A stretch of DNA of 32,402 bases from an uncultured Lachnospiraceae bacterium. Its GTDB lineage: Bacteria > Bacillota > Clostridia > Lachnospirales > Lachnospiraceae. Made by a program: the position numbers and the translations under genes. The stretch covers positions 1 to 32,402 of the forward strand of contig CAMOGQ010000030.1 of the NCBI GenBank assembly GCA_946614165.1, read 5' to 3'. The notes beneath the pieces were generated by a model. The model was not told the DNA's origin, searched no databases, and saw nothing but the letters and a program-made list of their open reading frames with translations. Shown here piece by piece: positions 19,040-32,100 of the stretch (position 1 is its first letter; each line of letters opens with the position of its first letter).

Positions 19040-22000
19040 TTGCAGTATAACTTTTACATCGACCCGGTAACAAGACGGGTCACGTCTGAGCATATGGTCG
19101 TCCTCTGGCAGGACCAGAACGTGACGACCATACATTTCAGCCTGGAAGATGCAGACGGCCTCTCCTTCGTCGGGGCTTCCATCCTGATCAAAGCGATTCT
19201 GCCGGGCGGGATCCATGTAGAGATCACCCCGGAGAACTTCGCTGTAGAGACCAATACGACCAAGGACGACGAAGGCAACGACGTTGTGATCGGCTATACA
19301 ACGACCTTTGACTGGACCCTCAAGCTGGAGCACACCCAGAAGGTCGGTCAGATCAGCTATTCCGTCTGCGCGATTCTCCTGGACCACACAGGGGAAGCCA
19401 TCGACAAAGAGTGGCACACGCTCAATGATTCCTTTGCTGTCCTGGACCATATCCATTTTGACGGGTCTGACGATTATGAAGACCCGGAGACTGCGGCGAC
19501 AAACGCTGAGAAGATCGCTTCCCTGCTCTACACAGTGGCGGCCATGGCCTCCAAGGTAGACGGCATGGTGAGCGGGGCTCCGGAGCCGGCGGAAACAGCT
19601 GCAGATATGTCGGATCATGACAAGCTGTATGTCTATATCGGCACGCAGACCAAGGACCTGACCCCGGGCTACTGGTATTTTTGGGATACTGTAAATGAGC
19701 AGTGGACCCCGGGCCTTGAATACGGATCAATGACAGTAGACACGGCCCTCAATGCCGACTCCACGAACGCCATCCAGAACAAGGTCGTCTATCAGGCGGT
19801 GGCGGACCTTAACACAGCTATCGGGTCGGTAGCATCTGACCTGGCAGCGGGCCTGGCCAGCGGGGCCATCACAAAAGCACAGCTGGCGGCAGCGGTGCAG
19901 GCTTCCCTGGACAAAGCGGATTCTGCTATGCAGCCCGCGGTTTATGACACCATGGGGAGAGGAGTAGATATCTATCAGTACGCCAAAGGGCAGGTGGATG
20001 ACTTTAAGGACAACTACTACACCCCTCTGTCCATGTCGATACAGGATGCCCTGCATATCACATCCGATGACGTGGACGTGCAGTATACGACCCTGCAGAG
20101 GGCACTGATCGGCGTCTATGATCTCAGTAAGGCTTATGTCCGGGCGCGCCTTGTAGACTACAGGGCCTTCACGATCACAGTTGTCGACGAGCTGCCGGCA
20201 GCGGGCCAGCCCATGACCTTCTACCTCGTCCCGAAGGAATCCGGGAACGGCTATGATAAATACTGGTGGATCGTCGATGAGAACGATGAGCCCAAATGGG
20301 ACGTGTTCGGAAGCTCCTCCACACTGGTCGTTGATGCACTGCCGCAGGTCGGCGATGAGGCCGTGGACTATATCCTCACGACGTCCTCCGGATGTTTATA
20401 TTACAAATATTTCGACAACGAATGGCATATGGTAGCCGGCTCTCTGGCTGAGACGGTAGACGAGCTTCCGCAGGCCGGGAACGAATACACTGATTACTAT
20501 GTGGCCAACGAATCAGGCATCTATATCCATTACAGATGGATCGATGATGACTGGGAGATGATCGGCGCTGACGGCTATACCAAGGCGGAGGTCGATGCCC
20601 TGCTGACGGTGATCAGCGGCAACGTCTCGAACCTGACCGATGGTCTGGCAACGACGAATACCAATCTCAATTCGGTCTCCAGGACTGTGGACCGGCTGGC
20701 CCAGTCGATCGAAGAACTGGGCGGAGACGGCCTCTCCTATTATGCCGAACTGTCTCAAGAGGGGGATGTCTATACTTACACCCTGTATGAGGTCGACGGC
20801 AGCGACGAGACGGTAAAGAGCCAGTTCGTTCTTCCCTCCGGAGGAGGCGGCGGCCAGTCATCCACTACGACACTGACCGTCGAGAAGGTCACAGCGTCCC
20901 CTATCGTCTGCACGCCCACAGATTCTGTGGTCATCCAGATCCGGTATTCTTCCGTCGACAGCGATAATGAAGAGGTCGACGGCTCCTACGTCTGGAAGCT
21001 GGGCAACACCATCATCGCGACTGGCCTGCTGACACAGGGGCTCAACACATTCGACCTGACAGAGCACTGCAGCATTGGATCCCAGAAACTGACTCTGACC
21101 GTCACGGATGAGGGCGGATCGGTAGCGGTCAAGGCCTGGAACGTCCAGATCGTGGACGTACGGCTGGAGAGCTCATTCAGCGACCGCTACACCAATCCTG
21201 TCGGGCAGGCCGTGAACTTTACGTACACGCCTTACGGCGCCGTCACCAAGACGGTCCATTTCAAATTGGACGGGGTGGAGCTGCAGAGCGTTTCGACCGG
21301 TGCTTCCGGCACTTTACAGTCCTATACGATCCCGACACAGACCCATGGCGCCCACCTCCTGGAGGTCTGGATCACAGCAACCATCAACGGCAACAATGTT
21401 GAGACGGACCACATATTCAAAGATATCATCTGGTATAACGAGAACTCCCTGGTGCCCGTGATTGGATGTCCTTTGCGTTATGACCATTACGGGCAGGTAC
21501 GTGCGAAACAGTACAACACGACCAGGATCACCTATGTCGTGTATGACCCATCAACGTCATCCCCTGAGGTCAGCCTCTCGGTAGACGGACATGTGGTCAA
21601 TACGCTGCAGCTGTCGGAAGCGGTCAATACATGGGCCTTCAAATCATCAGATATCGGAGTCCATACCCTCACCATTACCTGCGGGGTCACAAGCGTAGAG
21701 ATCCGGATCAATGTCGTGGAGCTGGGATATGATGTATCTCCCGTCACGGCTAACCTGGCTTTCGACTTCGAGCCCTCCGGCCGGTCGAATGCTGATGTGA
21801 ACAGGCTGTGGTCCGACGAAAACGACCCGTCTATTGCCATGACGGTGAGCAGTAACTTCGACTGGGTGTCAGGCGGGTATCAGGTAGACAGTGACGATAA
21901 CCAGTATTTCTGCGTCAAGGCCGGTAGCAGGGCATACATCAGCTATGACCTGTTCGGGACGAATCCCATCCAGGCCGGCGCCGAGTTCAAGGTCATTTTT

Positions 22001-25000
22001 AAAGTCACCAATGTCCGGGACAACACTACGTCCTGGCTCAAGTGCATCCCCGCCGCCGACCAGGTCAAGGTCGGGCTGGATATGAAGGCACATGCGGCCT
22101 ATATCAAGACGTCCACAGATGAGCTGTACACCCCGTACAGCGAAGAGGATGTCATCGAGTATGAGTACAACATCAACCCCCTGGATACGGAAGACCCCAA
22201 TGCTACGTCCTATATCATGTCCTATGAGGACGGCGTAGGAGCACGGCCCTTGATCTACGATTCTTCCCACAGGCTGTATCAGTACACTCCGGCCCCCATC
22301 ACCATCGGGTCGGATGACTGCGACGTCTGGATCTACAGGATGAAGGCATACGAATCGTCGCTGACTGACAGCGATATCCTTCGGAACTTTATCGCCGACG
22401 CCCGCGAAGCTGAGACGATGATCGCCCGCTATGAGCGCAACCAGATCTACGATGAGAACAACAGCCTGACCCCTGAGAGCGTGGCAGCTGCCTGCCCGGA
22501 CCTGAGGGTGATCATGATCGATTGCCCGCACTTCACAAACGACAAAAAGGATTATGTAAAGAACACTAACGTACGCTGCATCTACAAGAACGGCGATCCG
22601 GTCTATGACAACTGGCAGTGGACCAACGGCTACCACGCCGGTCAGGGCACGACGTCGAACGAGTATGGCTTTGCCGGCCGTAACATCGACATCATCTTCG
22701 GCTTTGACGGGGAGCATCAGAGGGTGTCCAAGATCCCGCTGGATGCGTCCTACATATCGGAGCTGGTCCTTGGGGACGGCACAAGGTACTCGGATGGATC
22801 CGGGAAGGTAAGCCTCACAAGGCAGTCCGTCCCGAACGACTGGTTCAACTTGAAGGTCAATATCGCATCGTCGGAGAACGCCAACAACGCCCTGCTCCAG
22901 AAGCGATATAACACCTATATCCCGTATAAGACGCCAGGCCAGAAAAAGAACCCCTACAGGAAGAATTCCATGGAATTCCAGAACTGCGTGATCTTCATCC
23001 GTGAGAATGATCCGGATATGTCTACGCACAGGGAATTCCAGGACAACGCATGGCACTTCTACGCCATCGGTAACATCGGCGATTCCAAGAAGACGGACAA
23101 CACCAGGGTCACGGACCCTACGGACCTTGCCGAATTCGTGGTAGAGGTCAGCGACAACACCTTGCCGAACTCCTGGTTCCAGACCGGTGTCTATCTGGAT
23201 GCCAATGATGATATCACCTACGACCCCGAAGAAGCCGTCTCGATGGTGTATCCCATCACCACAGCGCAGTGGAAGAATCAGAACAACCTAAAGAGGCAGT
23301 CGCTCTATGAGAACTGGGACGATTCATTTGAGTTCCGCTATGACATGGGGACCAAAGACGGGGAGACCATCAGCAGTGCCCAGATCGAGGCCCAGCAGGA
23401 ACTGTCCAAGCAGGTCTGGCGCGACATGTATGAATGGGTGGTGACATCCTCAGACGTCGATTTCGTCGCGGAACTGGGAGACTGGTTCATCGTCGAAAGC
23501 CCTTTGTACTGGTATCTCTTCACTGAACGCTACACGATGATCGATAACCGGGCCAAGAACTCGTTCTGGCACTGGGGCAAGACTTACATTACGGAAGCCG
23601 AGGCCGCAGAGCTGGGGGACGATGCCCAGTATTACACGGTGGATAACGCCGCGGCGGCCATCAACAGCGGCTACCGCTTCGACTTGTGGGACTATGATAA
23701 CGACACTGCCCTGGGCATCAACAACTCGGGTGAGCTGACCATGACCTATGGCAAGGAAGACGTAGACTATAAGACGGATGGAGACGCCTCCAGCGGCTTT
23801 ATCTTCAATGCCGCGCAGTCCGTATTCTGGTGCCGGATCCGGGACCTGATGTACACGCAGCTCCAGAACATGTATAGGGACAGGGAGTCCGCCGGCTGCT
23901 GGTCCGCAGAATCGCTGATCAGTCAGTGGGATACATGGCAGGAGCAGTTCCCGGAAGAGCTCTGGCGTCTTGACATCCAGAGGAAGTATCTGAGGACCTA
24001 CCAGGCCGGGACGGTCCGCTTCCTCAACGAAATGATGAACGGCCGGAAGCGCTATCAGCGCCGCCAGTTCGAGCGTGACCAGGAGGTCTACATCGGGACC
24101 AAGTATGTCGGGACCAACATCCGGGCCGACCAGATCATGTTCCGCTGTAACACGCCTTCCATAGCGGTGGTCCCGCCTGACTATACCCTGAAGCTGGTCC
24201 CTTACAGCGATATGTACCTGACGGTGCTGTACGGCAACAGCCCGGCCCCTGTACAGGTAAGGGCCAAAGCCGGCACCGAGTACACCCTCACGACTAACCT
24301 GACTGAGATGGACGATACGGCCATCCTGATCTATGCGGCCAGCAGGATACAGGCTATCAACGACCTGAGCGCCTGCTACATCCATGATAACGACTTTTCC
24401 AAGGCGTCGAAGCTCAGGACGCTGATCATCGGAAACACCACACAAGGCTATGCAAACAGTTTTTTAACGACCCTTAACATGGGCAACAACGTCCTTTTGG
24501 AGACCCTGGATATCCGGAACTGTCCGAACCTTACCGGATCGGTTAACCTGAGTGCCTGCCAGAATCTGGTGAGCCTGTACGCGGAAGGCACGGCGCTGAC
24601 ATCGGTGCTGTTTGCGGCCAACGGCAAGATCGCCCTGGCGCACCTGCCGAACACGATCAACAACCTGACCCTGCGCTACATCAAAAACTTGGTTGACCTG
24701 CAGATGGCTTTCGGAAATCTGGAAGCATTCGTCTGCGAATATTCAGATGTGAACGCCCTGAACATCGTCCAGACGGCCATCAACAGCCTCCAGGTGATCA
24801 GGCTCCTGGGGATCGAATGGACCCTCACGGAATCGACGCTGCTCAACCAGATTCTTTCCAAGAGCTCATCGCTGCTGACGGGATCAGTGTATATCTCAGG
24901 TCCTGTCAGGCAGAGGGAGCTTAACGCTTATGCTGCCGCATGGCCGGATCTGGAGGTCACATATGACCCTAACATGCTCGTACAGCAATATCAGGTCGCG

Positions 25001-26167
25001 TTCCTTAACTATGATGACACGCTCCTGTATGTGGACTATGTCGACTCAGGGACGCTTGCTACGGACCCGGTCACAGCAGGGCATATCAGCACGCCCACAA
25101 AACCTTCCGACGTTGGGCTGGTATATACATTCAGCGGCTGGGAAGGCATCAGCTCAGTGGTCACGGCTGACAAGTCTTTCAAGGCTCAGTACAGCTCGGC
25201 AACAAGGTATTATACCGTCCGATACCTGCAGGGCCAGACCGTCCTCCAGACAAGCCAGGTAGCCGCTTACGGCACCCCGTCCTATACGGGGGCAGACCCG
25301 TCCATAGCGGATGTGCCCGGAAGTTATACCTATTACTTATGGACCGGCTGGGGGAATGAACCTGCCCAGGTCGTAGCAGATACGGACGTCATAGCGACGT
25401 TCCTCCGGTGCGACCTTCCTTCGGAGGTCAAAGACCTGACAGACTATGACTACGCATACTCCGACGATCCGGAAGACTCCATGGCTTATACGCTGGGCGA
25501 ATTCTATGCCATCTGTCACTCGGGTCAGGCGTCAACTTATCTGAGCATTGGTGCACTGGTAAAGATGATTACGGACACCTCCCTGGTAGTCGACCCCTAT
25601 CTGGAGTTCCGGCTTCATTCATTTGGGCACTATGAGCTGGTCGTCGGCGGAATGTCGCATGCGGACTTTTATATGGTCGGGATTTTGCCGGGGCGGCAAA
25701 TGAACAGCTCCACAACCAACACGGGGGGCTGGAACGCCAGCAGGTTGCGGGAGTGGCTTAACGAGTCACTGTATCCCGCCTTGCCATTACTCTGGAAAGC
25801 AATCATATCTTCATCCATCACGCTGGCCGATGCAGGACGCTCGTATGATATAGTGAGGTCTACTGACTATCTCAGGATCCCGTCAAGGGCGGAGATTGGA
25901 CGGAGTACAACGGCCACGCCATACATGCAGGAGATATCGCCAAATGCGCACGAGGTCACTTTCAGCTGCTTCACGAACGATAGCTCGCGAATCAAGACCT
26001 ACTATACAGGGTCGGCAGGAGAATGGTGGCTTCGCAGCGCCGCTACTACGGAGAGTGCCAAGTGCTTTTGGTATATCCGATCCAACGGCGGCGATGGCAA
26101 TGTTGATTCCAATAGTGGCGCCTATGCCGATAACTCCAAGGGCGTGTGCGTCGGCTTCTCGGTATGA
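19040..26167 (+). CDS. giant modular tail fibre/receptor-binding protein (2375 residues)
   Basis: The start is TTG at 19040 after AAGGAGGGG. Domains in order, residue limits rough: 1-155 a BppU-like N-terminal sandwich that attaches to the baseplate; 170-580 repeated linker sandwiches with YVYIGTQTKDLTPGYWYF-like units; 612-880 Ig-like domains; 900-1125 a LamG-like jelly roll (NLAFDFEPSGRSNADVNRLW); about 1130-1660 a region weakly recalling the CotH kinase-like fold (AGQGTTSNEYGFAGRN, TMIDNRAKNSFWHW, DNDTALGINNSG); 1776-1960 leucine-rich repeats; 1983-2125 two InlB-type repeats; about 2140-2375 a DUF6273 C-lectin-like domain with NTGGWNASRLREWLN and EWWLRSA (W2329). It probably binds the host surface. 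The C-terminus shows signs of targeted diversification. Confidence 0.88.
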   Translation: MQYNFYIDPVTRRVTSEHMVVLWQDQNVTTIHFSLEDADGLSFVGASILIKAILPGGIHVEITPENFAVETNTTKDDEGNDVVIGYTTTFDWTLKLEHTQKVGQISYSVCAILLDHTGEAIDKEWHTLNDSFAVLDHIHFDGSDDYEDPETAATNAEKIASLLYTVAAMASKVDGMVSGAPEPAETAADMSDHDKLYVYIGTQTKDLTPGYWYFWDTVNEQWTPGLEYGSMTVDTALNADSTNAIQNKVVYQAVADLNTAIGSVASDLAAGLASGAITKAQLAAAVQASLDKADSAMQPAVYDTMGRGVDIYQYAKGQVDDFKDNYYTPLSMSIQDALHITSDDVDVQYTTLQRALIGVYDLSKAYVRARLVDYRAFTITVVDELPAAGQPMTFYLVPKESGNGYDKYWWIVDENDEPKWDVFGSSSTLVVDALPQVGDEAVDYILTTSSGCLYYKYFDNEWHMVAGSLAETVDELPQAGNEYTDYYVANESGIYIHYRWIDDDWEMIGADGYTKAEVDALLTVISGNVSNLTDGLATTNTNLNSVSRTVDRLAQSIEELGGDGLSYYAELSQEGDVYTYTLYEVDGSDETVKSQFVLPSGGGGGQSSTTTLTVEKVTASPIVCTPTDSVVIQIRYSSVDSDNEEVDGSYVWKLGNTIIATGLLTQGLNTFDLTEHCSIGSQKLTLTVTDEGGSVAVKAWNVQIVDVRLESSFSDRYTNPVGQAVNFTYTPYGAVTKTVHFKLDGVELQSVSTGASGTLQSYTIPTQTHGAHLLEVWITATINGNNVETDHIFKDIIWYNENSLVPVIGCPLRYDHYGQVRAKQYNTTRITYVVYDPSTSSPEVSLSVDGHVVNTLQLSEAVNTWAFKSSDIGVHTLTITCGVTSVEIRINVVELGYDVSPVTANLAFDFEPSGRSNADVNRLWSDENDPSIAMTVSSNFDWVSGGYQVDSDDNQYFCVKAGSRAYISYDLFGTNPIQAGAEFKVIFKVTNVRDNTTSWLKCIPAADQVKVGLDMKAHAAYIKTSTDELYTPYSEEDVIEYEYNINPLDTEDPNATSYIMSYEDGVGARPLIYDSSHRLYQYTPAPITIGSDDCDVWIYRMKAYESSLTDSDILRNFIADAREAETMIARYERNQIYDENNSLTPESVAAACPDLRVIMIDCPHFTNDKKDYVKNTNVRCIYKNGDPVYDNWQWTNGYHAGQGTTSNEYGFAGRNIDIIFGFDGEHQRVSKIPLDASYISELVLGDGTRYSDGSGKVSLTRQSVPNDWFNLKVNIASSENANNALLQKRYNTYIPYKTPGQKKNPYRKNSMEFQNCVIFIRENDPDMSTHREFQDNAWHFYAIGNIGDSKKTDNTRVTDPTDLAEFVVEVSDNTLPNSWFQTGVYLDANDDITYDPEEAVSMVYPITTAQWKNQNNLKRQSLYENWDDSFEFRYDMGTKDGETISSAQIEAQQELSKQVWRDMYEWVVTSSDVDFVAELGDWFIVESPLYWYLFTERYTMIDNRAKNSFWHWGKTYITEAEAAELGDDAQYYTVDNAAAAINSGYRFDLWDYDNDTALGINNSGELTMTYGKEDVDYKTDGDASSGFIFNAAQSVFWCRIRDLMYTQLQNMYRDRESAGCWSAESLISQWDTWQEQFPEELWRLDIQRKYLRTYQAGTVRFLNEMMNGRKRYQRRQFERDQEVYIGTKYVGTNIRADQIMFRCNTPSIAVVPPDYTLKLVPYSDMYLTVLYGNSPAPVQVRAKAGTEYTLTTNLTEMDDTAILIYAASRIQAINDLSACYIHDNDFSKASKLRTLIIGNTTQGYANSFLTTLNMGNNVLLETLDIRNCPNLTGSVNLSACQNLVSLYAEGTALTSVLFAANGKIALAHLPNTINNLTLRYIKNLVDLQMAFGNLEAFVCEYSDVNALNIVQTAINSLQVIRLLGIEWTLTESTLLNQILSKSSSLLTGSVYISGPVRQRELNAYAAAWPDLEVTYDPNMLVQQYQVAFLNYDDTLLYVDYVDSGTLATDPVTAGHISTPTKPSDVGLVYTFSGWEGISSVVTADKSFKAQYSSATRYYTVRYLQGQTVLQTSQVAAYGTPSYTGADPSIADVPGSYTYYLWTGWGNEPAQVVADTDVIATFLRCDLPSEVKDLTDYDYAYSDDPEDSMAYTLGEFYAICHSGQASTYLSIGALVKMITDTSLVVDPYLEFRLHSFGHYELVVGGMSHADFYMVGILPGRQMNSSTTNTGGWNASRLREWLNESLYPALPLLWKAIISSSITLADAGRSYDIVRSTDYLRIPSRAEIGRSTTATPYMQEISPNAHEVTFSCFTNDSSRIKTYYTGSAGEWWLRSAATTESAKCFWYIRSNGGDGNVDSNSGAYADNSKGVCVGFSV
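26024..26164 (+). other. candidate DGR-type variable region at the fibre gene 3' end
   Basis: From the WWLRSA motif to the stop, the codons are unusually restricted. All 19 codons at 26081-26137 end in C or T and could arise from AAC or AAT by changes at A positions. The segment is followed by a GC-rich end (26141-26161) that resembles an IMH-type anchor, and then the hairpin at 26178. No template repeat or reverse transcriptase is in the window, so this is a candidate only. Confidence 0.4.
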
Positions 26168-27062: not shown

Positions 27063-27482
27063 ATGACCACAGCGACGGAATTGATAGGGGCGGTCCTTGT
27101 GGCCGTCATTGGCAGCAAGATATGGGATCTTATAGCGGCGCGCCTGAAGCGCAAGGACGAGAAGGAAGACAAGCAGGATGCGGTCCTCCTGGCCCTGAAA
27201 GATATCCGGAAGGATATAACATCCATATCGAACAAGGTGGACGAGAACGCAGCGGTGCTGGCCCGGACCCACATCCTGCGTTTTAATGACGAGCTCATTA
27301 ATGGAATTGAGCATACGCAGGAATATTTCCGCCAGCAGCTCCAGGATATTGACACATACGAAAGGTACTGCGACAAGCACCCTGGATTTAAAAACACGTA
27401 TGCAGTCATGGCAATAAACAACATCAAATCGACCTACGACAGGCTCCTTTCAAAGGGGGCCTTTTCTATTAAGGAGGATTGA
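27063..27482 (+). CDS. holin-associated membrane-anchored coiled-coil protein
   Basis: A 139-residue protein with a short N-terminal membrane helix (ATELIGAVLVAVIGSKIWDL). A charged helical region follows (KRKDEKEDKQDAVLLALKDI, then ITSISNKVDENAAVLARTH), then a conserved block beginning LRFNDELINGIEHTQEYF and continuing DIDTYERYCDKHPGF. I know this pattern as a common Clostridia phage protein beside the holin; its role is not established. It might act as an antiholin-like partner. AGGAGAGATA precedes the ATG, and its stop overlaps the upstream edge of the holin gene. Confidence 0.75.
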   Translation: MTTATELIGAVLVAVIGSKIWDLIAARLKRKDEKEDKQDAVLLALKDIRKDITSISNKVDENAAVLARTHILRFNDELINGIEHTQEYFRQQLQDIDTYERYCDKHPGFKNTYAVMAINNIKSTYDRLLSKGAFSIKED

Positions 27483-27484
27483 GG

Positions 27485-27838
27485 ATGAACGATTTAACAT
27501 TTGAGATTGTCAGGCTCCTGATCAGGATCCTCGCGGCGGTGGTCACGATCTATCTCGTGCCCACCATCAAACAGTGGATCACTGTGCACGCAGAGAATGA
27601 AAAGCTGTACGCACTGATGCGCTGGGCGAAAGAAGCGGTATATGCCGCGGAACAGATCCATGGCGCCGGGACCGGTCAGGAGAGGAAGAAATACGCAGCA
27701 CACTTCCTTTGGGAGATCGCCCAGAAGAACAACATTAATATCACGGAAGATCAGATTAATCTTTTGCTCGAAGCGGCTGTCGGAGAGATGAACGCATTTG
27801 CCATTGACTTTGAAGAGCCGAAGGAAGAGCAGGGATAA
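27485..27838 (+). CDS. phage holin, LLH-type
   Basis: A 117-residue protein with one N-terminal membrane span (EIVRLLIRILAAVVTIYLVP), then a soluble helical domain (YALMRWAKEAVYAAEQIHG) and a Gln/Asn-rich stretch with ITEDQINLLLEAAVGEMN. This layout matches the LLH family of Bacillota holins. Holins time lysis by permeabilising the membrane. The ATG at 27485 is preceded by AAGGAGG; an in-frame TTG at 27479 lies too close to that site. It is followed by a terminator and then the endolysin. Confidence 0.85.
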   Translation: MNDLTFEIVRLLIRILAAVVTIYLVPTIKQWITVHAENEKLYALMRWAKEAVYAAEQIHGAGTGQERKKYAAHFLWEIAQKNNINITEDQINLLLEAAVGEMNAFAIDFEEPKEEQG

Positions 27839-27890
27839 AACATATAGGGCCATGTCCGGGAATGGCCAACAGTATCGAAACGTATAAGCG

Positions 27891-27924
27891 GGAGCCTGCA
27901 GGAGCAGGCTCCTATTTTGTTTTT
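27891..27924 (+). terminator. intrinsic terminator between holin and endolysin
   Basis: GGAGCCTGC at 27891-27899 pairs with GCAGGCTCC at 27904-27912 around AGGA, followed by TATTTTGTTTTT. A weaker 6-bp hairpin (27848-27867) precedes it. The hairpin would reduce read-through into the endolysin, whose ribosome site starts eight bases after the stem. Confidence 0.8.
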
Positions 27925-27935
27925 AGGGAGGAAGC

Positions 27936-29348
27936 ATGACAAAGAAAGGCATGGATGTCTCCTACCACCAGGGGACGATCGATTTCAAAAAGGCAAAAAA
28001 AGACGGCATAGATTTTGTGATCCTGCGGGAAGGATATCGCAAAACAATCGACAAAAAATTCCTCGAATATGTATCCGGAGCCAAAGCTGCCGGCATAGAG
28101 ATTCCAGGCGTTTATCATTTCTTTTATCCCTTGAAAGAGTCTGACGTCCTTCTGGAAGCTAAGTCCTGTATCGAAAATGTGGAGAAGGCCGGGCTGGGGA
28201 AGGACACCATCATCTTCGCTGACCTGGAATATGATACCTTCACGGACGCTAAAGAGAAGGGCGTGACGCTGCGTAAGTCCATCACGACACCATGGACGAT
28301 CATCTTCTGCGACTATGTCGAAAGCCAGGGATACAGAGCCGGCGTCTATCTCAACCAGGACTACTATAAAAACTACTATGATATGTCACAGATCCTGGCA
28401 AAAGGATATGTGATCTGGCTGGCAGACTATTCCGGGGATCCTAACTACCCCTGCACCTATCAGCAGTACTCAAATAAAGGTAAGGTAAGCGGCATATCCG
28501 GGAACGTCGATATGAACTACTTCTTCGGAGAGGCAAAGGCTGAACCGGTCACAGAGTGCGACACATCCCAGAGGCAGGCCGTCGTGGACGTCTTCGAAAG
28601 CTGGAAGGGCTATTCTGAGGCCAATGGAAAGCACAAACAGATCGTCGATATCTACAACGCCTATCTGGCCACAGCGGTCAAGGTGAACGGCACGATCAAC
28701 TACCGCGTCAGCTATTCAGACGCCTGGTGCGCTACGGCCATGAGCGCAGCATATATCAAGGCCGGCTTAGCGGACGCGTTCCCGATCGAGTGCTCATGCC
28801 CCAGGATGATCGAACTGGCCAAAAAGGCGGGCACCTGGGTAGAAGACGATGCGTATGTTCCGGATCCGGCCGATGCAGTCCTTTATGACTGGGGAGACTC
28901 TGGCAAGGGAGACAATGCCGGCACTCCTGATCACGTTGGAATGGTGGTATCAATAGATAAATCTGCCGGAGCTATGCTTGTAATCGAAGGCAATAAAAAT
29001 GACGCGGTGGAATACAGGACATTGCAGATCAATGGGCGATATATCCGCGGATTCATTCACACGATCATCTCCGGTACGGTGGCCAGCAAGACAGAAACAT
29101 CTGCCTCAGCTCCGTCCAAGGACGTCAGATGGAAGGGAAAGGTGACAGCGAGCAGGCTCAACGTCCGGACATGGGCCGGCACAGAGAACGATAAATGCAG
29201 GACCTTCGGTCCTCTCGACAAAGGTACTGAGGTCTATATCTGCGACGAGATATATGCGGCCGACGGCAGCTTATGGTATTACATCAAAACCATGGACAGC
29301 GGCAAGTATGGTTTCTGCCATTCTGCCTTCATCCGGAAGGAGGTCTGA
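27936..29348 (+). CDS. endolysin: GH25 muramidase + CHAP-like peptidase + SH3
   Basis: A 470-residue three-module lysin. Residues 1-200 are a GH25 N,O-diacetylmuramidase: GMDVSYHQG (D7), GVYHFFYPL, and the catalytic pair D96/E98 in IIFADLEYD. Residues 205-378 are a CHAP/NlpC-like amidase or endopeptidase with C265 in DAWCATAM and H333 in PDHVGMV, and IEGNKND as the third position. Residues 398-470 are a bacterial SH3 domain (ASRLNVRTWAG, then YYIKTMDSGKYGFCHSAFI) for wall binding. There is no signal peptide, so export depends on the holin. GGGAGGAAGC precedes the ATG. Confidence 0.94.
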   Translation: MTKKGMDVSYHQGTIDFKKAKKDGIDFVILREGYRKTIDKKFLEYVSGAKAAGIEIPGVYHFFYPLKESDVLLEAKSCIENVEKAGLGKDTIIFADLEYDTFTDAKEKGVTLRKSITTPWTIIFCDYVESQGYRAGVYLNQDYYKNYYDMSQILAKGYVIWLADYSGDPNYPCTYQQYSNKGKVSGISGNVDMNYFFGEAKAEPVTECDTSQRQAVVDVFESWKGYSEANGKHKQIVDIYNAYLATAVKVNGTINYRVSYSDAWCATAMSAAYIKAGLADAFPIECSCPRMIELAKKAGTWVEDDAYVPDPADAVLYDWGDSGKGDNAGTPDHVGMVVSIDKSAGAMLVIEGNKNDAVEYRTLQINGRYIRGFIHTIISGTVASKTETSASAPSKDVRWKGKVTASRLNVRTWAGTENDKCRTFGPLDKGTEVYICDEIYAADGSLWYYIKTMDSGKYGFCHSAFIRKEV

Positions 29349-29350
29349 CC

Positions 29351-30541
29351 ATGGGGAGGACAGTAAGCCTTTATATCCCGGGCTTCGAAATTCCAAAGAC
29401 CGCAGGCGTCAAATACGGAGACTATGCCGTGTTTTACGATGAGGCTGGGAATGCGCTTGTATTAGATGCAGGCCAGCGCCCTGCTTCTGCTGTGCTACGG
29501 GACTGGATCAAAAAACAGCATTTTAAGAGAATCTGGGTGGTGGGTACACATCCTCATACAGACCACATTAACGGGATAAAAGACATCATCAACGACCCGG
29601 ACATCTGGGTCGAAAAGGTCTGGATGACCGAATATGCTGCTTTAAAGACATACACGAACAGCAAGTACAGGAGCAAGCCGTGGTATGGTCGGGTCTGTGA
29701 CATGTATAACAGGTGCGCAAAGGGCCTGTACGACCTGTGTCAGCGCAACGGTATCCAGGTCGGATGGTTGGCCACCGGCACGCAGATCCGGATCGGGGAC
29801 ATACACTGCAAGGTTCTTTGGCAGTCAAAGAACAGCTACAGGGGGCCGGACACTGATCAATATGCCGGTATGTTCATCAATAACTTCTCCCCGGTATTTC
29901 TTTTTGACTTCGGATACTTCACTGCCGGCGACAACGAGCTGGGCTGTGATGCGGCCCGGAACGTCTGCAAGCCAGTGGTCATCGCCCAGATCCCGCACCA
30001 TGGGAATTATGTCGATAAAAAAGCGTTCGCAAAGCTCCGGCCGAAAGCCGCATGGTATAACTACGGCGAGCGGAACGGTACGATCGGGAAAGACAAGGGG
30101 TTTACTTCCTGGACGGTCCCGGTGGTACAGGCCACAGGAGCTGACATCTGGAACAATTTTAAAGACGGTTCTATCTTGATGCATTTCACGGATGACATGG
30201 TTGTGGTCTGCGGCGACCGGAACGACCGGACAAAGTACTATTCTCTGGGCGAGTACAAAAACTGGAGCCGGAGCGATCAGGAGCTGGCTGTCGAGGTCAT
30301 GCTCCGGAAGCACGGAAACGGCGACGCTCGGAAGAATGCCTTGGGGACACGCTGGGCAAATGTTCAGAGCTACGTGATGGTCTTCGTGAATGACAGGGAC
30401 GCCCTCCTGGAGGCCATGGCAGACTATATCATCCGGGACCTCTGCGGATCCGGAGAGAAACGCCGGGCTTTTATCGGTGAGGAATACTATACGGATGTCC
30501 AGAAGTTTGTCACAAGAAAGATGAGGGAAAAGAATGGGTAA
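29351..30541 (+). CDS. MBL-fold hydrolase with two CW_7 wall-binding repeats
   Basis: A 396-residue protein. Residues 1-300 are a metallo-beta-lactamase fold: THPHTDH (H67, H69, D71, H72) with the expected glycine-rich lead-in, D194 in AGDN and PHHGNY (H216/H217). Residues 309-347 (ELAVEVMLRKHGNGDARKNA, then VQSYV) match the Cpl-7 CW_7 repeat, which binds peptidoglycan, and 354-393 are a degenerate second copy. There is no signal peptide, so it would leave the cell with lysis. The substrate is unknown; wall-polymer or phosphodiester cleavage is inferred. The ATG at 29351 begins 2 bases after the endolysin stop, following GGAAGGAGG. Confidence 0.85.
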   Translation: MGRTVSLYIPGFEIPKTAGVKYGDYAVFYDEAGNALVLDAGQRPASAVLRDWIKKQHFKRIWVVGTHPHTDHINGIKDIINDPDIWVEKVWMTEYAALKTYTNSKYRSKPWYGRVCDMYNRCAKGLYDLCQRNGIQVGWLATGTQIRIGDIHCKVLWQSKNSYRGPDTDQYAGMFINNFSPVFLFDFGYFTAGDNELGCDAARNVCKPVVIAQIPHHGNYVDKKAFAKLRPKAAWYNYGERNGTIGKDKGFTSWTVPVVQATGADIWNNFKDGSILMHFTDDMVVVCGDRNDRTKYYSLGEYKNWSRSDQELAVEVMLRKHGNGDARKNALGTRWANVQSYVMVFVNDRDALLEAMADYIIRDLCGSGEKRRAFIGEEYYTDVQKFVTRKMREKNG

Positions 30542-31811
30542 GATCTATTGCCCCCGGTTCTCTTCGGACTGGGGCTCCATGATGCTGATCGAGTCGCAAG
30601 GTGAGCTCCTGCTGATTGATACCTATTGTGCCGGCAACGCTCACCCCAGAGCTGTCGTAAAGAGCGTTCTGGCCGGCCGGAAAGCAAATGTGTGCAACAC
30701 CCATGGCCACAAGGACCACAACGGGGACGCCGGCTGGTATCTGGATCAGGATATGATCAGCAGGTATTACTGCTCAATGTATGCCCCTTACCAGGAGTCC
30801 AGCAAGGATTTGGACCGGCACAATGCAATTCTGGCCAAGTGCAAGGCCAAAGACATCCCAGTCGTGAAGCTCCGGACCGGCTCCACGTTTGTGGTGGGTG
30901 GAGCAAAGATTACCTGCATGTTCGCAGGAGATAGGTACAGCAACAACGCCAAGAGCCTGTGCCTCTTGATCGAGATGGACGGATGTAAGATCCTCAACTG
31001 CGGAGACGCTACAGAGTGGACATTGAACCAGCTGATCCTGCAGGGCTACGATCTCAGCGACATTGATATCTGGATGTTCAACCACCACGGCGTAAAAGAA
31101 AACAATCCGGCATGGTGGATCAATAAGATCAAGCCGACCATTGCTATATCCAACTGCTGTGGAGAGAGCAACTCTACATACAGGAGCTGGGCGAAGGACG
31201 TCTATACCAGATGTGAGAATGCCCAGGTCAACTGCTACTCAACGCAGTACAACGGCGATCTGGTCTTCGAATGCCTGGGCGGCCTGGTCTTTCCGTCGGT
31301 CGAGAAAAACGGCCAGACGGTGACCAGGAACGGCAGGACAGTCACATTTAACAAGGCCGCCAAGAAGTATTGGCGCGGTAACTTCACCCGCAGAAATAGG
31401 CTTCCTCGTGATCTGGCTGTGGAAGTCATGCTGCAGATGTGGGGCCGTGATCCTGAAAGGTCGGCCATGATCCGGGCCGGGGGCTACGATCCGAAGGAAG
31501 TCCAGTCCTATGTCAACCTGTTTGCGCAGGACGAGACAGAGCTGCTCTGGGCCATGGCGGACTATGTCTGGCAGGGCTTCGCCGGATCCGGGACGCAGAG
31601 GAAGAACATCCTGACGCAGCCCGGCAAGTATGACTACTATGGCAAGGCCCAGGAATATGTGAAGCTGATCGACAACGTAGCTGCTCAGGTCCTTGCCGGC
31701 AGGTACGGCCAGAACCCTGACAGGGCTATCGCGCTGGCTGCGGCCGGATATAAGCCGGCGATCATTCAGAACAGGGTCAATCAGATCTACGGATCAAGCG
31801 CAAGGTCTTAA
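30534..31811 (+). CDS. second MBL-fold (ComEC-type) hydrolase with CW_7 repeats
   Basis: A 425-residue protein overlapping the previous gene by 8 bases. The MBL core has the HxHxDH motif in NTHGHKDHNGDAG (H57, H59, D61, H62), D158 in LNCGDATEW and NHHG (H184/H185). The ordering SLCLLIEMDGCKILNCGDAT is like the extracellular MBL domain of ComEC/Rec2. Residues 292-330 (DLAVEVMLQMWGRDPERSA, then VQSYVN) and 380-420 (VAAQVLAGRYGQNPDRA, then IQNRVN) are good CW_7 repeats; 338-379 is a degenerate third copy. The catalytic half is only distantly similar to the upstream partner, but the tails are clearly related. Confidence 0.85.
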   Translation: MGKIYCPRFSSDWGSMMLIESQGELLLIDTYCAGNAHPRAVVKSVLAGRKANVCNTHGHKDHNGDAGWYLDQDMISRYYCSMYAPYQESSKDLDRHNAILAKCKAKDIPVVKLRTGSTFVVGGAKITCMFAGDRYSNNAKSLCLLIEMDGCKILNCGDATEWTLNQLILQGYDLSDIDIWMFNHHGVKENNPAWWINKIKPTIAISNCCGESNSTYRSWAKDVYTRCENAQVNCYSTQYNGDLVFECLGGLVFPSVEKNGQTVTRNGRTVTFNKAAKKYWRGNFTRRNRLPRDLAVEVMLQMWGRDPERSAMIRAGGYDPKEVQSYVNLFAQDETELLWAMADYVWQGFAGSGTQRKNILTQPGKYDYYGKAQEYVKLIDNVAAQVLAGRYGQNPDRAIALAAAGYKPAIIQNRVNQIYGSSARS

Positions 31812-31895: not shown

Positions 31896-32027
31896 ATGGG
31901 TTACATTGAACATCTGGTGGCCAACTGGAGAGTAGCCGCTCACGCTTTATGGGATTTTTGGGCCCATTTCATCCATGGCCTGATCCCGTTCATCAAAATC
32001 AGGCACCATCAGCCTGTGAATAAGTGA
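31896..32027 (+). CDS. 43-residue phage late protein, unknown function
   Basis: A 43-residue protein from the ATG at 31896, with GTAGGAAGG upstream. The sequence MGYIEHLVANWRVAAHALWD followed by FWAHFIHGLIPFIKI and a HHQP end is a recognisable small protein found after lysis genes in many Clostridia prophages. The family has no known function. It is Trp- and His-rich and amphipathic, so it may associate with a membrane. It is the last gene of the late transcript, before the terminator at 32068. Confidence 0.75.
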   Translation: MGYIEHLVANWRVAAHALWDFWAHFIHGLIPFIKIRHHQPVNK

Positions 32028-32067: not shown

Positions 32068-32100
32068 GCCCCGGGAACTGCTATCCCGGGGCGATTTTTT
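32068..32100 (+). terminator. strong intrinsic terminator ending the late operon
   Basis: GCCCCGGGA at 32068-32076 pairs with TCCCGGGGC at 32084-32092 around ACTGCTA, then GAT and six Ts to 32100. This is the strongest terminator in the window. It lies between the plus-strand late genes and the convergent minus-strand pair. Confidence 0.92.

Follow-up and report, generated by a model that had tools for sequence, protein, structure and literature searches.

Metallo-β-lactamase-fold proteins with wall-binding tails: probable helpers of lysis in a phage of Lachnospiraceae

Introduction

What would a phage do with two metallo-β-lactamase (MBL)-fold proteins that both end in wall-binding repeats of the CW_7 type and are encoded directly after its endolysin? 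The question is raised by contig C30 (CAMOGQ010000030.1) of an uncultured Lachnospiraceae bacterium, the whole of which, at 32,402 bases, is the window analyzed here; the genome to which it belongs spans 3.78 Mb in 288 contigs and is 87.65% complete. Inventories of endolysin catalytic domains normally name only a few kinds: glycosidases, amidases and peptidases. We argue that the two proteins, which we call MBL1 and MBL2, are in all likelihood wall-directed helpers of lysis. A more specific proposal, which sequence comparison leaves evenly balanced, is that they are metal phosphodiesterases trimming a non-peptidoglycan polymer of the wall at lysis, as auxiliaries to the lysin.

Results

Two MBL genes in the lysis region

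The plus strand of the window carries late phage genes, namely those for terminase, portal, major head protein, Dit-like and minor tail proteins and a holin-family protein, and the order thereafter is holin-family gene, GH25 lysin, MBL1 and MBL2. The features are listed with the two MBL genes first.

29351..30541, plus strand: MBL1, with an MBL domain (about residues 1-300) and a CW_7 tail (309-396)
29549..29566, plus strand: metal motif of MBL1, HPHTDH, residues 67-72 (sequence)
30281..30376, plus strand: CW_7 repeat of MBL1 (PF08230, 31.3 bits at genome level; protein residues 311-342)
30534..31811, plus strand: MBL2, with an MBL domain (about residues 1-285) and three CW_7 repeats (292-425)
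30702..30719, plus strand: metal motif of MBL2, HGHKDH, residues 57-62 (sequence)
31410..31517, plus strand: first CW_7 repeat of MBL2 (25.7 bits at genome level)
31671..31787, plus strand: third CW_7 repeat of MBL2 (37.9 bits at genome level)
27479..27838, plus strand: holin-family gene, 119 amino acids (aa) (phrog_6918 holin, E 5.3e-23)
27890..27913, plus strand: terminator-like hairpin between holin and lysin (consensus scan only)
27936..29348, plus strand: endolysin with GH25 muramidase, CHAP/TIGR02594-like part and SH3-like tail (PF01183, 4.7e-25; phrog_6745 endolysin, 1.5e-58)
32068..32092, plus strand: terminator-like hairpin after the run of lysis genes (9-bp stem, 8 G-C pairs, T-run; consensus scan only)

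An earlier, sequence-only reading of this stretch had described two tandem genes following the endolysin with an 8-base overlap, and this is what we find: MBL1 (396 aa) runs from an ATG at 29351 to a stop codon ending at 30541, and shares the bases 30534-30541 with MBL2 (425 aa). The joint expression which that reading drew from the arrangement is plausible in view of the overlap and the hairpin after the gene run, but the further terminator-like hairpin between holin and lysin speaks on the other side.

The wall-binding tails are well supported. The Pfam CW_7 model (PF08230, curated cut-off 25 bits) matches MBL1 with 32.2 bits at residues 311-342 and MBL2 with 64.1 bits in two stretches, the best at 380-418, and the tail boundaries proposed earlier (309-396 and 292-425) fit these matches. 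A second CW_7 profile, made of 19 repeats that a pattern search had picked out of other loci, resolves three repeats in MBL2 (294-328, 345-369 and 382-416) and one clear repeat in MBL1 (312-331), a further stretch at 360-373 being not significant (i-E 0.17). For the N-terminal parts, MBL2 reaches 24.7 bits against the Lactamase_B cut-off of 22.7, and MBL1 stays below it with 19.4; the fold of MBL1 therefore rests on weak matches, its motif and its relatives. The metal site is intact in both, as had been claimed: HxHxDH lies at 67-72 in MBL1 and 57-62 in MBL2, followed by an Asp (194 and 158, respectively) and an HHG (216-218 and 184-186), and all are invariant in alignments of eight MBL1 and five MBL2 sequences, the window's included, as are all seven presumed metal-site positions (HxHxDH, Asn, Asp and His). 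The Pfam scan of the two proteins recovered no known peptidoglycan hydrolase domain and, at E up to 1, no choline-binding repeats.

A BLASTP comparison of MBL1 with MBL2 (E 7e-13, residues 216-387 of MBL1) is driven by the CW_7 tail. The pair may or may not have arisen by tandem duplication: the tree presented below separates the genes, while the approximately unbiased (AU) test does not (p 0.134).

As for the neighboring lysin, its CHAP/TIGR02594-like part is a weak match (TIGR02594, 0.0036) and its SH3-like tail was recognized by eye, the relative from contig L012 giving a weak SH3_2 match. The lysin has no CW_7 match in Pfam at E up to 1, whereas CW_7 is present at 417-456 of L066, a GH25 protein encoded by a different genome of the family that by eye looks similar to this lysin. 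Directly 3' of MBL2 we noted, by eye, a 13-base inverted repeat lacking a T-run (31814-31826/31838-31850) and, between MBL2 and the terminal hairpin, an open reading frame (ORF) of 43 aa with a plausible ribosome-binding site (31896-32027).

Conservation of the cassette in viral relatives

Relatives of MBL1 with 69-92% identity are present in seven IMG/VR contigs. A lysin lies upstream in all six for which the upstream gene was read (L005, L006, L008, L012, L014 and L043), and MBL2 follows in six of the seven, although L014 and the contig of L007/L082 end before the gene is complete; the seventh, L043, ends after MBL1. The lysis-cassette placement beside holin and lysin is conserved. Since the lysins of L043 (GH25 with PG_binding) and L012 (GH25) differ from that of the window, the MBL genes stay while the lysins change. 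Compared with four relatives, MBL1 has a ratio of nonsynonymous to synonymous substitution rates (dN/dS) of 0.069-0.089; the values are 0.069-0.086 for MBL2 (three relatives) and 0.045-0.078 for the lysin (three or four). L012 and L043 are more distant, and the synonymous rate (dS) is saturated in comparisons with them.

Purifying selection close to the level of the lysin could also be expected of enzymes with another purpose, namely cutting the glycopolymer to which the phage itself adsorbs, so that the progeny escape from debris. The chemistry would be that of our preferred reading. The expected wall-bound position and the separate genes beside the lysin suit such receptor stripping, and the pneumococcal enzyme Pce, which removes surface groups, offers a precedent (PMC7785958). 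On the other side, these phages have no known receptor, the time of expression is unreadable from sequence, and the fusions of related domains to lytic enzymes, described next, suggest direct help in lysis; we consider this purpose quite unlikely to be the right one.

Fusion and fission with lysins

Searching 61 genomes of the window's genus with a profile of MBL1 relatives, and viral contigs with a mixed alignment, uncovered related MBL domains within lysins. An 859-aa protein (L093/L108) combines Amidase_2, PG_binding_1 and glucosaminidase domains with an MBL part that is recognized by alignment and profile, its Pfam Lactamase_B score of 14.7 bits being below the cut-off. In L122 and L087/L109, a holin-like gene is followed by an amidase-glucosaminidase lysin (by Pfam for L122) and then by a separate MBL gene of 410-412 aa. 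Scanning with the L093-type MBL returned 12 IMG/VR contigs (L142 and L143 are alike, and L145 matches L124). Eight of them (L136-L143) have the MBL inside an 858-859-aa protein with the same start, as judged by length and start, with amidase and glucosaminidase confirmed by Pfam in L136 and L141; in the other four (L144-L147) it forms a gene of its own directly behind a shorter amidase-glucosaminidase lysin (by Pfam for L144). Hence, lysin and MBL undergo fusion and fission among near relatives, and the MBL type concerned is the one grouped with MBL1 in the tree.

Further architectures were found by Pfam: MBL, choline-binding repeats and Amidase_2 in a single protein (L084), MBL with choline repeats and GH25 (L156), GH25-CW_7-MBL (L217) and, in the most complex case, GH25-CW_7-MBL-GH114 in one protein of 1,076 aa (L200). 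In L118, a CHAP-like start, seen by eye and with a home-made profile and lacking a Pfam match, precedes CW_7 and MBL; next come a gene that looks holin-like by eye and one whose product is GH25 by Pfam. The help to the lysin which the sequence-only reading had suggested is thus strengthened by fusions of related MBLs to amidase, glucosaminidase, GH25 and GH114 in other phages. Separately, two genomes of the genus (L112/L114) encode proteins with CW_7 repeats first and MBL last, outside visible prophage genes, which are possibly remnants or domesticated lysis genes.

The same fusions might be read differently, with the MBL being itself a peptidoglycan hydrolase, acting for example on bonds of the peptide stem, and simply another catalytic domain of endolysins. 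CW_7 targets peptidoglycan, and MBL-fold D-Ala-D-Ala peptidases have been mentioned (PMC12419801). However, the MBL-bearing lysins already hold one or two domains that cut peptidoglycan, the nearest solved relatives act on phosphodiesters, and the GH114 partners suggest a second polymer. This makes the hydrolase explanation very unlikely in our estimation.

Breadth of the association in viral contigs

Scans with the MBLs of L084 and L118 found 6 and 74 contigs, respectively, and an MBL ORF could be obtained from 77 of the 80 loci. These 77 loci, mostly of the L118 type, contain near-copies (L179/L180/L183, L194/L196, L174/L199 and others), and L152 is L084's own contig. For Pfam, 64 of the 77 ORFs were used, leaving aside eight that are cut by an edge, the copies L180, L183, L196 and L199, and a 112-aa piece in L171; families were counted at E up to 1e-3. 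All 64 keep HxHxDH. Lactamase_B was matched in 61, SPOR in 35, CW_7 in 22, GH114 in 8, GH25 in 7 and Choline_bind_3 in 6, with PG_binding_1 (3), CHAP (3), ELLD (2), Amidase_2 (2) and Apyc1 (1) as rarer companions. The upstream neighbors (58 of 62 scanned) include SPOR (24), Amidase_2 (22), Phage_lysozyme2 (16), GH114 (12), DNA-ligase-like (9) and holin (3) families, where the Amidase_2 and Phage_lysozyme2 counts are not added together, as they may reflect the same proteins. Downstream (52 of 56 scanned) there are GH114 (22), SPOR (22), holin families (4), GH25 (2) and a single match to GDPD, the glycerophosphodiester phosphodiesterase family, which includes teichoic acid enzymes.

With home-made profiles, a peptidoglycan hydrolase was detected either fused to the MBL or within two same-strand ORFs of it in 51 of the 77 loci, GH114 in 52, and one or the other in 70. 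These profiles matched 81 of 253 nearby ORFs as against none of 181 ORFs more than four genes away, a contrast that is partly built in, since the profiles are single sequences and several of them come from proteins of the counted loci themselves: GH114 (L191), LYZ2 (L160), the CHAP-like start (L118), and the repeats and amidase (L084). As the LYZ2 and GH114 profiles match each other's targets, they share one label in the count. The Pfam counts for MBL ORFs and neighbors are independent of these profiles.

SPOR-MBL proteins fused to or preceding GH114 glycosidases recur in many viral contigs (L177-L224; e.g. L191:5707-7590 and L203:5725-7835). GH114 enzymes are galactosaminidases, and GH114 as a partner in lysis may be a finding of its own.

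Relationship to solved MBL structures

A 17-row MBL profile, seven rows of which are host wall proteins, finds its nearest solved matches in ComEC chains (9ic4, 2.6e-22) and also reaches those of Pce/CbpE (12qj, 2.7e-18; 1wra, 3.3e-17; 2bib, 2.2e-16); the host wall rows alone give ComEC at 2.7e-19 and CbpE at 3.5e-14. The likeness to Pce pointed out in the sequence-only reading is supported in a wide sense, but Pce ranks behind ComEC and the profiles made from phage sequences alone are much weaker. The ComEC model covers MBL2 only with its MBL end (553-663 of 663), at 22.1 bits against a cut-off of 190.

Since the MBL domain of ComEC is a Mn-dependent phosphodiesterase and nuclease (PMC8579336), and since among solved proteins ComEC comes first with the family profile as well as with the two phage-only ones, the MBLs could instead be wall-bound nucleases, which would degrade the DNA or RNA spilling out at lysis, lower viscosity and let virions spread, with CW_7 keeping the enzyme on debris. 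The MBL domains of MBL1 and MBL2 are mildly basic (pI 8.9 and 8.5), as might suit such a role, but charge does not discriminate, for five sampled ComEC-type domains are neutral to acidic. The middle residue of motif II differs: it is His in MBL1 and MBL2 (HPHTDH and HGHKDH) in place of the Asp that ComEC carries (HxDxDH; PMC8579336), though one of the five ComEC-type proteins sampled (L046) also has HxHxDH. With His at motif II and a later Asn, the phage MBLs match neither ComEC nor Pce cleanly; as Pce shows Asn-rich letters at the same later place in alignments and one ComEC-type protein has the His, the motif letters do not decide. The genomic partners are GH114, GH25 and amidases, with no secreted nuclease family among those listed, and the tree sets ComEC apart. 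We regard the nuclease explanation as unlikely.

In this 50-row tree, MBL1, the L093 type and L084 share one clade (95/95), and ComEC groups with free-standing secreted MBLs in another (99/98). Support is weaker (83/87, 81/80) for the placement of MBL2 beside CW_7-MBL and host wall MBLs, while L118 stands alone on a branch of length 2.18 outside the MBL1 clade. AU tests reject neither MBL1 and MBL2 as one clade (p 0.134) nor all phage MBLs of the tree as one (p 0.116). As a marker of the family, phrog_14556 was discarded, because it matches all 61 genomes tested in the genus and also 8 of 14 controls; its members that were read are general secreted ComEC-like MBLs. Another PHROG matched was phrog_7043, a tail family of which one part is an MBL.

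Apyc1 is a further phage MBL, which raises the prospect of an anti-defense enzyme destroying cyclic nucleotide signals. One of the 64 relatives matches the Pfam Apyc1 model (2.9e-4), and a search with just the MBL of L118 finds the Apyc1 chain 7u2r at 0.0057, with many other MBLs ranking ahead of it. Yet Apyc1 is not among the Pfam matches of MBL1 or MBL2 at E up to 1, the PADLOC matches are weak (best 1.8e-5), and a late lysis position with wall-binding tails is unsuited to an eraser of cytosolic signals; an anti-defense role is hardly credible here.

Host wall proteins and a possible substrate

Two proteins of the window genome itself, 731 and 784 aa long, combine choline-binding repeats and an MBL domain with N-termini that look signal-like by eye, in a layout like that of Pce. 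Such Pce-like proteins also occur in genomes of the host genus, a commensal lineage (L049:1909-4101, minus strand; L050:986-3337, plus strand; L088-L095), as examined by Pfam for L049, L050, L088 and L092. By eye, another protein of the genus (L086:1276-2313; 346 aa) begins with a signal-like segment, continues with CW_7-like repeats and closes with a part resembling NlpC/P60.

The TagB/F-type family PF04464 has no match in the window genome, where the Bacillus subtilis control matches, and the genome encodes two LicD proteins. Together these suit a phosphorylated glycopolymer decorated by LicD proteins, as far as sequence goes. The case for a secondary wall polymer as substrate is made because of GH114, LicD and Pce.

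Searches in annotated phages and bacterial genomes

In an annotated phage collection, MBL1 matched 18 records and MBL2 59, in no case over 80% of the query length. The 18 match only residues 303-392 of MBL1, namely the CW_7 tail, and among the 40 matches listed of the 59, at least nine match the MBL part. Of six such MBL records that were read, L044-L047 have the MBL beside bacterial housekeeping genes by eye, L048 is too short to tell, and in GBSV1 (L015) the MBL gene lies on the strand opposite to the lysis genes. A genome scan with the MBL2 profile gave 38 pattern matches, none confirmed. CW_7 was matched in 25 of 392 genomes of the order; HxHxDH, present in MBL2 of the window, occurs in none of the 17 distinct CW_7 ORFs read from other genomes, a set that is no full count, L056, L058, L059, L064, L065, L070, L072 and L075 being outside it. 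A family-wide search with the MBL1-type profile (E 1e-20) found two of 397 genomes, the window's own and G081.

Elsewhere in the window, all PHROG matches of a 2,375-aa ORF in the tail region (19040-26167) are to families without assigned function, phrog_14959 and phrog_24896 being the best.

Discussion

How might such proteins act? As MBL1 and MBL2 have no obvious N-terminal signal sequence by eye, they would be expected to leave the cytoplasm like the lysin, through the holin lesion. The CW_7 repeats would then hold them on peptidoglycan, as suggested by the binding of the Cpl-7 CW_7 repeats to the peptidoglycan fragment GMDP (PMC5705596). There, a metal site of the ComEC/Pce kind might hydrolyze phosphodiester bonds of a non-peptidoglycan wall glycopolymer, the candidates being either a phosphorylated side group, as in Pce, a wall enzyme that cuts phosphodiesters (PMC7785958), or a linkage or backbone phosphodiester. 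Removal of the polymer would open the wall to the GH25 lysin and free the debris of it, and in other phages a GH114 partner would cut the glycan part of the same polymer.

Several observations weigh against this account. The Lactamase_B score of MBL1 falls short of the cut-off. The top solved match, ComEC, is a nuclease, and MBL folds serve many chemistries. The similarity to Pce is carried by the profile with seven host wall rows among its 17: a phage-only MBL1-type profile finds ComEC at 1.6e-7 and various MBLs, with no Pce at E 0.01, and the MBL2 profile gives ComEC at 2.3e-5 and Pce at 0.011. The 74 L118-type loci, the bulk of the breadth, may represent a separate MBL lineage, as indicated by the long branch outside the MBL1 clade and by the WHG or WHT that the L118-type proteins read have where the window proteins have HHG. 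Seven of the 77 loci (L154, L166, L169, L222, L224, L225 and L227), several at contig ends, have no lysis enzyme near the MBL, and nine of the 58 upstream neighbors are DNA-ligase-like. Lastly, the absence of PF04464 is weak evidence given the completeness of the host genome.

The parallels to known systems are partial in each instance. Pce/CbpE, the pneumococcal teichoic acid phosphorylcholine esterase (1WRA, 2BIB and 12QJ), likewise joins an MBL domain with HxHxDH to wall-binding repeats in the same protein; however, its repeats are choline-binding whereas those of the phage proteins are CW_7, and it is a bacterial surface protein rather than a phage lysis gene. The same combination of MBL and wall-binding repeats is seen in the choline-repeat proteins of the host genus (L049, L050, L088, L092 and others), which differ in being chromosomal, with signal-like N-termini (by eye), choline-binding repeats and no lysis context; similar Lactamase_B choline-binding proteins are drawn for Gemella (PMC7136413). 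The MBL domain of ComEC/Rec2 shares the Asn, GD and HHG motifs after motif II, but MBL1 and MBL2 lack its membrane channel, bear wall-binding tails and have HxHxDH rather than its usual HxDxDH. Cpl-7 and other CW_7 endolysins have such repeats in the phage lysis region, three of them in Cpl-7 as in MBL2, but the catalytic part of Cpl-7 is a muramidase where here it is an MBL, and the window phage's own lysin is without a CW_7 match. Free-standing MBL genes are also phage-coded in Bastille-like Bacillus phages and GBSV1; for the former, the portion of the report available to us places none in an endolysin and describes neither wall-binding tails nor lysin fusions (PMC4528723). A survey of CW_7 proteins gives GH25, Amidase_2, lysozyme-like and Amidase_5 with GH73 as the commonest catalytic partners, MBL going unmentioned in the part available (PMC5705596). 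We found no report of MBL domains in endolysins in a search of open-licence papers, which is no proof of absence. Lysis cassettes and CW_7 tails are known already, but there seems to be no precedent for an MBL that recurs as the catalytic part of lysis modules.

We tentatively extend the proposal, with confidence a shade short of even, to a further class of lysis enzyme in phages that infect Lachnospiraceae of the rumen and kin of these: a modular, wall-anchored MBL phosphodiesterase, often paired with or fused to GH114, which would dismantle a secondary wall polymer and would have been recruited more than once, partly from the stock of wall MBLs of the hosts. If this is true, an MBL hydrolase recurring in many architectures adds an enzyme class to lysis, and some Gram-positive walls need a second polymer to be removed before they give way. 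It would also offer a handle for identifying that polymer in the abundant and poorly studied Lachnospiraceae of the gut.

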